Source: Segatella copri
GTDB lineage: Bacteria; Bacteroidota; Bacteroidia; Bacteroidales; Bacteroidaceae
DNA: 64,000 nt
NCBI RefSeq assembly: GCF_019249655.2
Contig: NZ_CP137557.1
Coordinates: forward strand, 3,567,001 to 3,631,000
Reading direction: 5' to 3'
The notes under the pieces were generated by a model, which was not told where the DNA came from, did not search any database, and saw only the letters and a list, made by a program, of their open reading frames with translations. The translations under genes were made by a program, and so were the position numbers. The first letter of the stretch is position 1; the number at the start of each line of letters is the position of its first letter. Below, in pieces: positions 43,655-48,425 of this stretch.

Positions 43655-43762
43655 TAGTAGAAAGTTTCGTTCAGCGACGTTGAATGTCCGTTCAGCGACG
43701 TTGAATGTAGGTTCGGCGACGTTGAATGTAGGTTCAACGACGTTGAACGGAACTTTCTTCTA
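43655..43762. repeat. Palindromic array: four 21-bp repeats inside a 19-bp inverted repeat
   Basis: Units start at 43668, 43689, 43710 and 43731 with consensus GTTCAGCGACGTTGAATGT; the last reads GTTCAACGACGTTGAAC, a perfect palindrome around one base. The whole set is framed by TAGTAGAAAGTTTCGTTCA (43655-43673) and its near-complement (43744-43762, two mismatches). The array could form one long hairpin or bind a repeated regulator. Confidence 0.85.
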
Positions 43763-43912
43763 GTCTTAAAAACAATTTCGACCTATATGGTTGAAAATCC
43801 TCCTATAATAAATTCGATATTACACTCCGATGGAATGGCAAGAGCCAGCAATAGTTCTTGCCCATTTATTGCAATGCTTTCATCCATAACCATTGCATGT
43901 TTCCCAAAAACG
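43763..43912. other. Short non-coding gap
   Basis: Nothing gene-like. The DNA becomes similar to the other tRNA locus from about 43897 onward. Confidence 0.4.
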
Positions 43913-43958: not shown

Positions 43959-44065
43959 TGGACCAGCTAGGGCTTGAACCTAGGACCTCCAGATTATGAG
44001 TCTGTTGCCAAGCCTTACTAACTCCTGCGGGCTTAGCAAGGTGCAACCAACTGAGCTACAAGTCT
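43959..44065 (-). pseudogene. tRNA-Met(CAT)-like sequence with 36-nt D-arm replacement
   Basis: Compared with the intact 74-nt tRNA at 48352-48425, this copy is 107 nt. The anticodon arm (CTCATAA loop), variable loop, T-arm and 3' acceptor strand are identical. Position 1 is A instead of G, breaking the first acceptor pair. In the D-loop, after GTTGGTT, AGA is replaced by a 36-nt insert that contains CCTTGCTAA and TTAGTAAGG, a 9-bp stem with one wobble. The second half of the D-stem is thereby lost. It is therefore probably a pseudo-tRNA, although its terminator is intact. Confidence 0.8.
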
Positions 44066-44410: not shown

Positions 44411-44492
44411 TTTTTGTTTTTATGGATAATTAGCTAAAAAATAAAGCCAACCTCCATATGATGGTAGAAGTTGGCCAAATAGGTACGATATT

Positions 44493-45581
44493 TTAAAAAT
44501 CTTTTAGGTTGAGTATCATTTCTTGCCCAACTCTTTGTTTGATAAGAATTTCGGCTTGATATGCTTTTTTGTCTTTTATGCTATTTAATTCATAATATGC
44601 CTTGTTTGAATGTATTATGGTAAAATCAAGTTTCGTTAGGTCTGTTGCTGTAGAACCAATTTGAGCATCTTTTGCCAACGTGTTTGTATTTGCAAAATAA
44701 ACATTTGGCATTAAAGCTATTATAGGATTTATTTCTAATATGATAGGAGTTAAACCTGTGGCTGTCATAGAAGAGTACATCATCGGGTGCCCTTTTACGA
44801 GGCTCAATCTGACATAATCGCTAATTCCCATTTCTTTGTCATAATATCGAGACCTTTCACTACTAGCGTATTTAGGTCTTATTCCTTTTTTGTGTAATTC
44901 ATCTGCCGAAAGTAGTCCATATCTTTTTATAGATTCAATATTGTTCTTATCTGTGAAATGATAGAACTTTGTAATATTGTTTCTCTTTAATATTTCGAAA
45001 ATTTCTGAGAAATCAGATTTGAAATTTACAGTTTGTTGAAGCTTTTTAGCATCATGAAGTGTTACAGAAAAATTATTTTCTTGTAAATCCTTTGGAAAAT
45101 ATAAGTTTTGAAAAACTAGACTGCACTTTAAAATATAAGAGCGTGCAACGGTATAAGAACCTTCGATATAAATGCGCTTAAACCATTGTTGTGGGATATA
45201 ATCTATATTGTTATTGTTGCAAAATGCTTTAAACTCAGAATCGTTAGAAAAACAATGTAAACTATTGTTGGGAATTTGAAAAATGCTTTTTATGTATCGG
45301 TACATTAAATATCTGATATTTTCTATAGGCTTTGGAAAGAAAACAAAATCGGGGTTTGGAATAACCCCAAGAATAGCAAGATGCTCTGCTAGACCTTCTT
45401 GGTTTAATCCTAATAAGTTGTTTTCATAAGCATTTTGCCTTGAAGATACTTCCATCTCAAAGTAAATATCTTCGTTTATGCTAAACTCTGCTGCTAAGAA
45501 GTTTCCGATAGGTGCTATATAGGCAGTATGAGTTAAAAAGCTTAGTTGTTCTGCTGTATTTTTATCGATAATATTTTGCAT
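44493..45581 (-). CDS. DarT-like ADP-ribosyltransferase with unfamiliar N-terminal half
   Basis: 362 residues. The C-terminal part (about 200-360) has the pattern of DarT (DUF4433) DNA ADP-ribosyltransferases: FYHFTDKNNIESIKRYGLLS (206-225), DYVRLSLVKGHPMMYSSM (255-272), TPIILEINP, VYFANTNTLAKDA and YQAEILI, where Glu344 matches the catalytic Glu of DarT. DarT modifies thymidine in single-stranded DNA and is controlled by the macrodomain protein DarG. Residues 1-200 match nothing I recognise. No macrodomain gene is adjacent; instead a 153-residue unknown protein is encoded 69 bp upstream. Very AT-rich, suggesting transfer. Confidence 0.7.
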   Translation of the reverse strand: MQNIIDKNTAEQLSFLTHTAYIAPIGNFLAAEFSINEDIYFEMEVSSRQNAYENNLLGLNQEGLAEHLAILGVIPNPDFVFFPKPIENIRYLMYRYIKSIFQIPNNSLHCFSNDSEFKAFCNNNNIDYIPQQWFKRIYIEGSYTVARSYILKCSLVFQNLYFPKDLQENNFSVTLHDAKKLQQTVNFKSDFSEIFEILKRNNITKFYHFTDKNNIESIKRYGLLSADELHKKGIRPKYASSERSRYYDKEMGISDYVRLSLVKGHPMMYSSMTATGLTPIILEINPIIALMPNVYFANTNTLAKDAQIGSTATDLTKLDFTIIHSNKAYYELNSIKDKKAYQAEILIKQRVGQEMILNLKDF

Positions 45582-45650
45582 TTTATTTATTTTTGTTTAT
45601 AATTTATAGGGCTAAATAGAATCAGCCCTATAAAAAAATATCGTTATTTG

Positions 45651-46112
45651 TTATTCGAAGTTCCATGTTCCTATTCCTGTCCAAGCATCATTTAGAGGAC
45701 TTATAAAACAATGTATTCTTTGTGCAGTTCTAACATAAAGTTCGTACATGAAACCATGTCCGTTATTTTCCATAATTTTCCCCATCTTATAGATAAAGCG
45801 TCCGATGTAGATTACACGAGGGTCTGGAACACTTTTCTCTGTTAATGGGTCTTTTACATAGAATGGTGTTTGGTTTGGTTTATGTTCCCATTCTGGAATC
45901 AGGGGACTGCCTTTGTAACCAACTTGGCCGATAATCTTAGTTGAATCTAACTGTTCTTCCCCAATAAGAGCAAGTAATGTTGCAATTTTATCTAAAAATA
46001 TGTCAACAGTCATGTCTGTAGCTAAAAGTTTTTGGATATATGCTTCAACCTCTTTAGCTGTTTGAGGAATTTGTGGAACTTGTTTTTTCCCTGTAAATTC
46101 TTCAAGTGTCAT
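45651..46112 (-). CDS. Unknown 153-residue protein upstream of the DarT-like gene
   Basis: No family recognised. The N-terminal third is Pro/Gln-rich then helical (KKQVPQIPQTAKEVEAYIQK), and the C-terminal part is aromatic and Gly-rich (VIYIGRFIYKMGKIMENNGH, HCFISPLNDAWTGIGTWNFE). It lacks macrodomain features such as a GDI/GVAGAI-type motif. It lies on the same strand, 69 bp ahead of the DarT-like gene, and shares its AT-rich composition, so the two are probably one unit. An antitoxin or immunity role is inferred from position only. Confidence 0.5.
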   Translation of the reverse strand: MTLEEFTGKKQVPQIPQTAKEVEAYIQKLLATDMTVDIFLDKIATLLALIGEEQLDSTKIIGQVGYKGSPLIPEWEHKPNQTPFYVKDPLTEKSVPDPRVIYIGRFIYKMGKIMENNGHGFMYELYVRTAQRIHCFISPLNDAWTGIGTWNFE

Positions 46113-46525
46113 ATTGTTACGTTGCCTTTATATCCCCACCAGATAGGCTTTTATTGATAGTTGTTTTCAACACATAAAGAAAGGAGCATGGGGACTATTG
46201 AGTATTACTGACATAAAGCTCTGGACTGCTTGCAAAATAGTAACAGACAATAGCCCATGCTCCATGTGTTATATATATGGGTATATATATGCGACATGAA
46301 AGCATGAGCACCTTGAACTGCCATCTCATTTTGCATCGAATTGTCCAGATTCTATGTCGAGATAACTTCAAACGCTCATTCTAAATATGTACTTCTACTC
46401 CTTGTAGAATTGGTGCAAATTTAGCAATAATTGTTTGATTGACCAAGGATTTGTCAGTCTTTCTTCTAATATTTGTTGAGATTTAACATTTCAAGTTGTT
46501 TTTTCTTGGCTATAATTTAGTTGAG
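46113..46525. other. 413-bp intergenic region
   Basis: Contains the structured RNA candidate (46169-46270) and a following AT-rich stretch with TATATATATGGGTATATATA (46271-46290). No protein gene is credible. Confidence 0.5.
46169..46270. ncRNA. Candidate structured RNA, about 100 nt
   Basis: Nested arms: AACACAT (46169-46175) with ATGTGTT (46264-46270); GGAGCATGGG (46183-46192) with CCCATGCTCC (46254-46263); then ATTG/CAAT and TATTACT/AGTAACA further in. The stem has asymmetric bulges and an apical loop of about 25 nt, unlike a simple terminator. Strand is uncertain because both strands fold. Confidence 0.45.
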
Positions 46526-46575
46526 AAAGCAATAGGGGCATGCCGTATCAAGTAACGACATGCCCCTATTGCTTT
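46526..46575. terminator. Long-stem terminator after the AAA/PD-(D/E)XK gene
   Basis: AAAGCAATAGGGGCATG pairs with CATGCCCCTATTGCTTT over 17 bp around a 16-nt loop. It overlaps the last bases of the gene at 46574. Confidence 0.85.
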
Positions 46576-48157
46576 ATACTTCATTTACCATTTCCCAATC
46601 CAAAACGCCTTTGCCTTCTTCGTTTAGTTCTATGCCTAAGCCTACTACCTCTCGCTTGTCGGCCTTGAAAGGCTCTAGGTATTGTCGGTCTTGAATTTGC
46701 TTGATGGCAGCTTCCTTGCCTCCATTGTTTCTTAACTTCAGTTCTATTATATAGATGTGATGAGTTGTTTTGACAACGAGGTCGATTCTGCCAGTAGAAA
46801 GCATGTGCTCTACTTCCACCTTCAAACCGATGGCATTCAAGATGGTACTGATAATCAGTCGGTAACGCTCTTCCATATCCATGGATGCCAACTTTTTGTT
46901 GCTGTAAGGCACATCGGCAACCAATGCTTTGAGTGCTTTCATCGCTTTATCTAGCTCTTTGCATTCCAGATATTGGTACAACTGCGCTTGCAGAGATTGC
47001 GTATCAGCCTCTTGTCGCATGGTCAATGCCGGCAGTACGCATTCGTATAGCGCCTGTTTTACCTCTTCATTTGGGAAGCCTAAGTGATAGACATTTCCTA
47101 CGCACGATTTAATGGTGAGATAACCTGATTGATATAAGAAGAGTTCTGGACCTCCACCAGTAACATCGGAAGTCTCCAATGTGTTGCGGAGAATCATGCA
47201 ATCCTCAAAGTCAGGTAGGCGCAACTCTGCATCCTTGATGAACTTCGGCAGCATGGATGTGGCTCCTGATGATGCCCAATAACTGTTGAGATCCTGGGTG
47301 TCAAGCGCATTGATAAGGCTGAAAGGATTGTAGATGTCAACCATGTTTCGGCGACTGAAATGGTAACCGTCGTAGTAGTCCTTCAGCTTGTCGTGGGTTT
47401 CCTGCAAAGTCCATCCGTTCGCCTCTGCCATTTTTTCAAGTTCAGGCTTGAAGTTCTCTTTTATTTCCTCTTCAGTGATGCCGCAGATGGCTGCATATTC
47501 TGGGAGGAAACTGATGTTGGTTAAATTGTTGAGCACAGAGAAAAGGGAAATCTGCGTAAACTTGGTGATGCCCGTGATAAAGACCAGACGCTCGTATTCA
47601 TCATCGGCCTTTAAAATGGCAAAGACTTCACGATATACCTCGGTGCATGCTTCGTGTTCCGGGGTTTTCCAAGAGTGCTGGAGTGGAGAGTCATATTCGT
47701 CGATAAGGATGGCAACCTTCAAGCCCGTCTGTTTGTATGCCGTCGTAATGATGGCATCAAAGCGGTCGGCAAGTTTGGCTGTAGAATCGGGAGTGATGGA
47801 ATACTTCTCCTCGTAGTATCCGAATCGCAGATTCAGGTACGAACGCAAGGTTTCTGCATTGGCTCCTCCACGGCTCATGTCGAGTCGAATCACAGGATAT
47901 GCTTTCCAATCCTTCTCCAAGTCCATAATTTTGAGTCCTTCGAAGAGTTCTTTTCTTCCTTCGAAGTAACATTGTAGCGTATCAACGAGCACAGACTTTC
48001 CGAATCGGCGAGGGCGGCTCAAGTAATTATACTGTTTGCCTTTGTTCGCCAATTTCCAAATGATGTCAGTCTTATCAACATAGAGATAGTTTTCTTCTCT
48101 TATCTTGTTGAAAGATTGTATGCCTGTAGGCAGCTTTCTGTATTCATTGTTTGCCAT
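46574..48157 (-). CDS. AAA-ATPase-like / PD-(D/E)XK nuclease-fold protein (DUF1703 type)
   Basis: 527 residues from the ATG at 48155-48157, which has a strong AAAGGAG Shine-Dalgarno. A frame extension into the tRNA region is not used. N-terminal AAA_ATPase-like region: LPTGIQSFNKIREENYLYVD, RPRRFGKSVLVDTLQ (Walker A) and AILIDEYDSPLQ (Walker B). The C-terminal DUF1703/PDDEXK_9 domain has GRIDLVVKTTHHIYIIELKL (Asp, Glu-x-Lys). A widespread Bacteroidetes family with no established function. A related protein is encoded at 62738. Confidence 0.88.
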   Translation of the reverse strand: MANNEYRKLPTGIQSFNKIREENYLYVDKTDIIWKLANKGKQYNYLSRPRRFGKSVLVDTLQCYFEGRKELFEGLKIMDLEKDWKAYPVIRLDMSRGGANAETLRSYLNLRFGYYEEKYSITPDSTAKLADRFDAIITTAYKQTGLKVAILIDEYDSPLQHSWKTPEHEACTEVYREVFAILKADDEYERLVFITGITKFTQISLFSVLNNLTNISFLPEYAAICGITEEEIKENFKPELEKMAEANGWTLQETHDKLKDYYDGYHFSRRNMVDIYNPFSLINALDTQDLNSYWASSGATSMLPKFIKDAELRLPDFEDCMILRNTLETSDVTGGGPELFLYQSGYLTIKSCVGNVYHLGFPNEEVKQALYECVLPALTMRQEADTQSLQAQLYQYLECKELDKAMKALKALVADVPYSNKKLASMDMEERYRLIISTILNAIGLKVEVEHMLSTGRIDLVVKTTHHIYIIELKLRNNGGKEAAIKQIQDRQYLEPFKADKREVVGLGIELNEEGKGVLDWEMVNEV

Positions 48158-48184
48158 AATCCTTTCTCCTTTTTTAATATGGCA

Positions 48185-48192
48185 CAAAGATA
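48185..48192 (-). promoter_or_regulatory. -7 box of the AAA/PD-(D/E)XK gene
   Basis: Minus-strand TATCTTTG, 28 bp before the ATG. Confidence 0.5.
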
Positions 48193-48305
48193 CGGCAAAT
48201 AATTGAAACCACCAAATTTTGAAAGAGGAATTACGATGTTGCTCTTTGAAGATGCATTCTTTCTGCATGCTTGAATTCGTAGTTTCAGGCATGTTTCCTA
48301 AAACG

Positions 48306-48340
48306 AAAAAAGCAGTTAAGCGATTTCTGCTTAACTGCTT
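48306..48340 (-). terminator. Terminator of tRNA-Met
   Basis: Minus-strand 12-bp stem AAGCAGTTAAGC with its complement and a T-run, 12 bp beyond the tRNA. Confidence 0.9.
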
Positions 48341-48351
48341 GATTTCCAACG

Positions 48352-48425
48352 TGGACCAGCTAGGGCTTGAACCTAGGACCTCCAGATTATGAGTCTGTTG
48401 CTCTAACCAACTGAGCTACAAGTCC
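48352..48425 (-). tRNA. tRNA with CAT anticodon (Met; Ile2 possible)
   Basis: 74 nt folding into a cloverleaf: acceptor GGACTTG/CTGGTCC (one T-T mismatch, one G-T), D-arm GCTC/GAGC, anticodon loop CTCATAA, T-arm CTAGG-TTCAAGC-CCTAG, discriminator A. CCA is not encoded. The first pair is G-C, so it is not an initiator-type C-A mismatch. Elongator Met is likelier than lysidine-modified Ile. Confidence 0.92.

Follow-up and report, generated by a model that had tools for sequence, protein, structure and literature searches.

A DarT-like ADP-ribosyltransferase with an added N-terminal domain and a conserved small partner protein in Bacteroidales

A 64,000-nucleotide (nt) stretch of the Segatella copri genome (NZ_CP137557.1, positions 3,567,001-3,631,000, forward strand; hereafter "the window") contains two adjacent genes that encode a small partner protein of 153 residues and, after a gap of 69 nt, a 362-residue DarT-like ADP-ribosyltransferase (ART) with a novel N-terminal half. 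Our analysis confirmed the pair as a genuine and conserved DarT-type system of two genes. A first-pass annotation of the sequence had proposed a DarT pattern in the C-terminal half of the larger protein, an N-terminal part resembling nothing familiar, an unfamiliar small protein preceding it on the same strand, and no adjacent DarG macrodomain gene, and all four proposals were borne out. Judged from sequence comparisons, the pair appears to work like a DarT toxin-antitoxin (TA) system whose partner gene and toxin N-terminal half (N-half) set it apart from both DarTG1 and DarTG2.

The DarT-like toxin

Fold prediction assigns a DarT-type ART core to toxin residues 196-362, in agreement with the match to Pfam family PF14487; the outcome that the first-pass annotation had named as refuting, a predicted fold with no ART core at residues 200-360, thus did not occur. 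Alignment with DarT structures in the PDB places His208 in the HFT motif and identifies counterparts of the arginine, methionine, asparagine and glutamate residues of DarT1, including the catalytic Glu344; their conservation was scored over 34 aligned rows of the toxin family (Table 1). The roles of the HFT position and of the four-residue set are those assigned to DarT1 in passages of PMC11543638. A degenerate toxin was rejected, the catalytic residues being intact. The closest PDB DarT by sequence is DarT1 (26% identity over 155 residues, vs. 16-18% for other DarTs), and the toxin scores 31 bits on the NCBIfam toxin_DarT model, far under its cut-off of 150. Asparagine also occupies the base-reading position in each of the 28 other Bacteroidales DarTs that lack a macrodomain, and serine does so in four of the five macrodomain-linked ones.

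The N-terminal domain, predicted to consist of strands and helices, belongs to no curated family. No Pfam, NCBIfam or PADLOC model matched residues 1-190 up to an E value of 1, and no Pfam match lay N-terminal of residue 206. Apart from DarT and DUF7002, no Pfam family hit more than two of the 34 toxin-family rows scanned, the best E value being 0.003. Profile comparison with hhalign rejected two candidate identities for the N-half, a hidden DUF6939 (probability 0.0%) and a second ART (probability 0.2% against the ART half).

Searching 5.8 billion proteins yielded 103 relatives of the whole toxin, 34 of which (P0001-P0034) contain all or part of the N-half; the DarT domain is present in all of P0001-P0033, P0034 being truncated. 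For the remaining 69, the alignment covers no more than 63% of the toxin, mostly its ART half. Mean identity over 11 pairs was 52% for the N-half vs. 56% for the ART half, so the N-half is slightly less conserved. A cluster of 44 public sequences is 99% identical to the toxin, and a divergent form of the N-half occurs in locus L037 (E 5.5e-13). The relatives P0035-P0103 have DarT-like domains fused to many differing regions, of which those of P0060 (ankyrin) and P0103 (TPR/Sel1-type) were named by Pfam, the others being without a named domain.

The small partner and its pairing with the toxin

Relatives of the small protein numbered nine by single-sequence search and 39 by profile search. The family shares the motif PFHIKDxITxKxVPDPRVxxIG and the ending LxxAWxGIGxW, and D88, T91, D97, R99 and W144 are invariant among 37 members. 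These 37 gave no PHROG match at E 0.01 and no convincing Pfam match (four families, one member each, best E 0.01). Of five AlphaFold2 models, the best reached a predicted local distance difference test (pLDDT) score of 85 and the other four 64-75; fold searches with the best model revealed no clear likeness to solved (PDB) or viral structures. Two identities were rejected: a divergent DUF6939 (hhalign probability 0.2%) and a DNA-mimic antitoxin, the isoelectric point being only mildly acidic (5-7 in 32 of 37 members). A cluster of 23 public sequences is 99% identical to the small protein.

The first-pass annotation had named a lack of co-occurrence across genomes as refuting its reading; the two genes do co-occur elsewhere. 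The genes were read directly side by side in the window and in L001, a Muribaculaceae contig in which the small gene (45% identical to that of the window) ends 20 nt before the toxin gene (52% identical). For nine of the 34 toxin-family entries, the longest contig is equal in size to that of one of the 39 small-family entries, and linkage is thus indirect; one of these matches is a Bacteroides contig of 4,246,562 bp. No such match was found for any of the 69 other DarT-like entries; 25 toxin-family and 30 small-family entries were likewise unmatched. Of 789 distinct Bacteroidales genomes surveyed, drawn from the family of L001 (397) and from its order (393), one encodes a member of the small family and one encodes the full N-half toxin; the two proved to be the same genome, with the genes adjacent. 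A second genome (G113) has only a divergent N-half.

Pairwise distances of the toxin and the small protein correlate across 11 linked pairs (r = 0.75 for the N-half and 0.74 for the ART half), with none of 5000 permutations as high. This shows joint inheritance, and it does not tell which half of the toxin is the partner. Two small proteins (P0132 and P0135) are without the first ~14 residues, and the toxins of that clade start ~7-12 residues late. These matched late starts hint at a contact between the proteins, the observation being confined to two linked pairs, in one of which the toxin (P0033) has an incomplete N-half. None of the titles or abstract openings listed in searches of the DarT, DarTG, NADAR and DUF4433 literature (PMC9503650 and PMC5179494 among them) describes the pair.

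Related loci and genomic setting

Genome searches located 36 DarT-like places outside genome G001, and the neighbours of 33 of these, all in Bacteroidales, were analysed by profile search. DUF6939 adjoins DarT in 22 loci (L038-L053, L056, L057, L059-L062 and L070) and a macrodomain is nearby or fused in five, so that 27 of 33 have one or the other close by; six have neither (L037, L058 and L063-L066), L063 and L066 lying at contig ends. The ART profile of the N-half toxin family scores 127-159 bits in 20 of the 22 DUF6939-linked loci, 86-87 bits in L052 and L053, and 31-49 bits for the five macrodomain-linked DarTs. DUF6939 (PF22075, function not assigned) has a weak similarity, below the curated cut-off, to the Pfam family NADAR-DarT1, which itself adjoins DarT on two named plasmids. 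DUF6939 is thus probably a NADAR-type antitoxin of the related Bacteroidales DarT systems, as far as profile similarity and gene neighbourhood can indicate; a literature search found no paper naming it.

Two arrangements were seen in passing. Judged by eye, 11 of the 13 loci L004-L016 (not L006 or L012) have a common gene order, in which a leucine-rich-repeat-like gene is followed by DUF6939, a DarT with a long C-terminal region and a PP2C-phosphatase-like gene. The DarT-like gene of L024/L058, for which neither DUF6939 nor a macrodomain was seen, has a C-5 cytosine DNA methylase gene as its neighbour.

In a tree of 137 DarT domains, the N-half family forms one clade (34 of 34 rows; Shimodaira-Hasegawa-like approximate likelihood ratio test (SH-aLRT) support 94). 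The clade shares an unresolved fork with one DUF6939-linked and two NADAR-linked DarTs, close to the main DUF6939 group; the tree was built by a quick method and rooted on the five macrodomain-linked DarTs, 46 of its 129 inner branches have support below 80, and several branches are long. Because the N-half clade branches beside NADAR- and DUF6939-linked DarTs, a NADAR-type antitoxin was likely the earlier state, absent in this clade. Profile searches of the window and L001 gave no DUF6939 match and, with a profile built from three macrodomain proteins, no macrodomain gene; genome G001 contains neither DUF6939 nor NADAR-DarT1. The NADAR-DarT1 and generic NADAR models, run on the two genes of the window pair, matched neither.

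The pair shares with DarTG1 (DarT1-NADAR) the ART core, the HFT motif, the catalytic set with its base-reading asparagine and a neighbouring place in the tree, but differs in the missing NADAR-type gene, the 190-residue N-terminal domain and the uncharacterised partner encoded upstream. From DarTG2 (DarT2-DarG macrodomain) it differs in having no macrodomain gene, in carrying Asn300 instead of histidine, and in its low toxin_DarT score. It was classed as neither, because the defining antitoxin of each is absent. The Bacteroidales DarT-DUF6939 pairs have DarT cores that score high with the family's ART profile, and the DarT of L070 is also N-terminally extended (PF14487 from residue 261), but these pairs keep a NADAR-like gene and their extra regions differ. 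Another system for comparison is CmdTAC, whose antitoxin is reportedly not a hydrolase. CmdTAC, an mRNA ADP-ribosyltransferase defence system (PMC11618068), likewise joins an ART toxin to partner genes, but its ART is a different one and its genes number three; the likeness is by description only.

Table 1. Features of the pair and its surroundings in the window (positions counted from the first nucleotide of the window).
Feature	Position	Strand	Evidence
Small partner protein (putative antitoxin), 153 aa, first gene of pair	45651..46112	-	Open reading frame (ORF) list
DarT-like ADP-ribosyltransferase (putative toxin), 362 aa, novel N-terminal half	44493..45581	-	ORF; PF14487 E 5.3e-20
N-terminal domain of toxin, residues 1-190	45012..45581	-	Predicted model; conserved in relatives
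DarT ART core, residues 196-362	44493..44996	-	Fold prediction
His208 (H17 in E. coli C7 DarT1), in the NAD-binding HFT motif	44958..44960	-	34/34 aligned rows, window included
Arg245 (aligned with R52 of DarT1)	44847..44849	-	33/34 rows; remaining row a gap in truncated P0034
Met267 (aligned with M71 of DarT1)	44781..44783	-	34/34 rows
Asn300, base-coordinating position (N104 in DarT1, H119 in DarT2)	44682..44684	-	33/34 rows; remaining row a gap
Glu344, catalytic glutamate (E152 in DarT1, E160 in DarT2)	44550..44552	-	33/34 rows; remaining row a gap
Stem-loop, 13 bp, between small gene and toxin gene	45603..45634	-	-18.1 kcal/mol, z -4.7
Terminator-like hairpin directly 3' of toxin gene (weak)	44445..44476	-	Terminator scan
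Intact tRNA-Met(CAT)	48351..48425	-	ARAGORN
Broken tRNA-Met copy, 36 nt replacing 3 in apparent D arm	43959..44064	-	Repeat comparison

The stem-loop between the two genes could not fit the 20-nt gap of L001. Terminator-like sites are about as frequent as expected (two in the scanned stretch vs. 1.2 from shuffled sequence). The surroundings of the pair are AT-rich, with a GC content of 33-39% in 2-kb windows at 40-47 kb and at least 43% beyond. Further structured DNA lies on either side: 21-bp repeat units at 43655-43765 form a long, near-continuous hairpin (-63 kcal/mol, z -11), and on the upstream side of the small gene an inverted repeat, long but imperfect, spans 46170-46270 (-38 kcal/mol, z -6).

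The proposal that the pair lies in a mobile context held clearly for L001, where the pair follows an adjoining Mob_Pre relaxase gene. For the window it rests on a tRNA-Met duplication: a 108-nt repeat that includes the tRNA, one copy intact and one broken, 4.39 kb apart, brackets the region from 44.0 to 48.4 kb, and no recognised mobility gene occurs between the copies. Also between them is an AAA-ATPase_like + PDDEXK_9 gene (46574-48349). In L037, the DarT variant comes after helix-turn-helix, DUF5906 and Toprim-primase genes and the gene for a 486-residue protein that appears relaxase-like by eye, with no Pfam match. A Parabacteroides plasmid (typed non-mobilizable) carries a DarT-DUF6939 pair after a Toprim primase similar to that of L037 and an unnamed gene. 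At L037:6835-9038, the DarT with its divergent N-half precedes three small genes for proteins of 122, 146 and 126 residues, the last weakly TerB-like, possibly a further partner set.

The toxin had no match in phage records or, by pattern-based search, in IMG/VR, and the five plasmid DarTs that match it do so over the ART half only. The small protein likewise had no match in phage records or IMG/VR, nor did its relative P0124 in plasmids. A phage or plasmid origin of the pair was rejected on these searches.

Proposed control of the toxin

We propose that the two genes form an operon-like TA pair on mobile DNA of Bacteroidales. The free toxin would act like DarT1, moving ADP-ribose from NAD+ onto a base in single-stranded DNA, most likely guanine, and this marking would keep the cell or an invading phage from replicating. 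Related toxins would be checked by a NADAR-type hydrolase that erases the mark, either NADAR-DarT1 or, as we infer, DUF6939. In the N-half clade, the 153-residue protein, made just before the toxin, would take over control; it would most likely bind the toxin via the N-terminal domain and keep it inactive, and the toxin would be released upon loss or diversion of the small protein. The fold, the catalytic residues, the clade, the conserved pairing and the lack of a linked hydrolase are results of the analysis, and guanine as the target, toxicity, inhibition, docking and the trigger belong to the proposal. The title of PMC11481870 names a phage-encoded mimic of a DarTG antitoxin.

We favour the small protein as a bound antitoxin because cells carrying such a toxin must check it and this protein is the only linked candidate. 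The N-half would be a natural docking site. DarG, which also binds DarT (in passages of PMC11543638), sets a precedent for control through both binding and hydrolysis. A bound-antitoxin pair that controls a DarT1-like toxin via the added N-domain is the best explanation, with slightly better than even chances, given that asparagine at the base-reading position is not exclusive to DarT1. There is about an even chance that the pair is a third kind of DarT system, with no mark-erasing hydrolase, in which a new small protein binds a dedicated N-domain as a type II-like TA or a phage-sensing pair.

Excerpts from PMC11833690 and PMC11543638 describe the DarT antitoxins as ADP-ribose-removing enzymes that belong to the macrodomain or NADAR family. 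The small protein could accordingly be an antitoxin that erases the DNA mark in NADAR's place, as an ADP-ribosyl hydrolase of a new kind. The five invariant residues of its family would suit an enzyme. Its profile is nevertheless unlike that of DUF6939, its only Pfam matches are to families hit by single members, and no clear PDB fold match was found; we consider this possibility unlikely. Similar doubt attaches to the idea that the pair is an effector with a sensor or activator, in which the N-domain alone would silence the ART core, with the small protein serving as a trigger or phage sensor and not as an antitoxin. The clade with the added N-domain is indeed the clade without a linked hydrolase, and many Bacteroidota DarT-like domains are fused to varied other regions, but the N-terminally extended DarTs of L059, L062 and L070 keep an adjoining DUF6939 gene. 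A small-then-toxin gene order and tight pairing, moreover, are usual for antitoxins.

Finally, neutralisation of the toxin might come in trans, from a chromosomal NADAR or from repair, the small protein having an unrelated role. Genome G001 encodes one generic NADAR elsewhere, which might help in this way, and a sigma70-linked NADAR partly rescued cells from DarT1; YbiA and phage NADARs, however, gave no protection from DarT1 (both in excerpts from PMC11125620), and the small gene is paired with the toxin across divergent lineages. This is the least likely of the alternatives.

If the pair does act as toxin and antitoxin, the antitoxin would be of a new type. This idea, already raised in the first-pass annotation, was strengthened because 27 of 33 related loci have DUF6939 or a macrodomain and the small protein is unlike DUF6939. 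A bound antitoxin would mean that DNA-ADP-ribosylating toxins can be checked without reversal of the mark; such an antitoxin could not undo damage already done, as would suit a role in abortive phage defence. The 39 partner proteins and the defined pair offer material for testing, and DUF6939 emerges as the probable eraser in the related systems of Bacteroidales.
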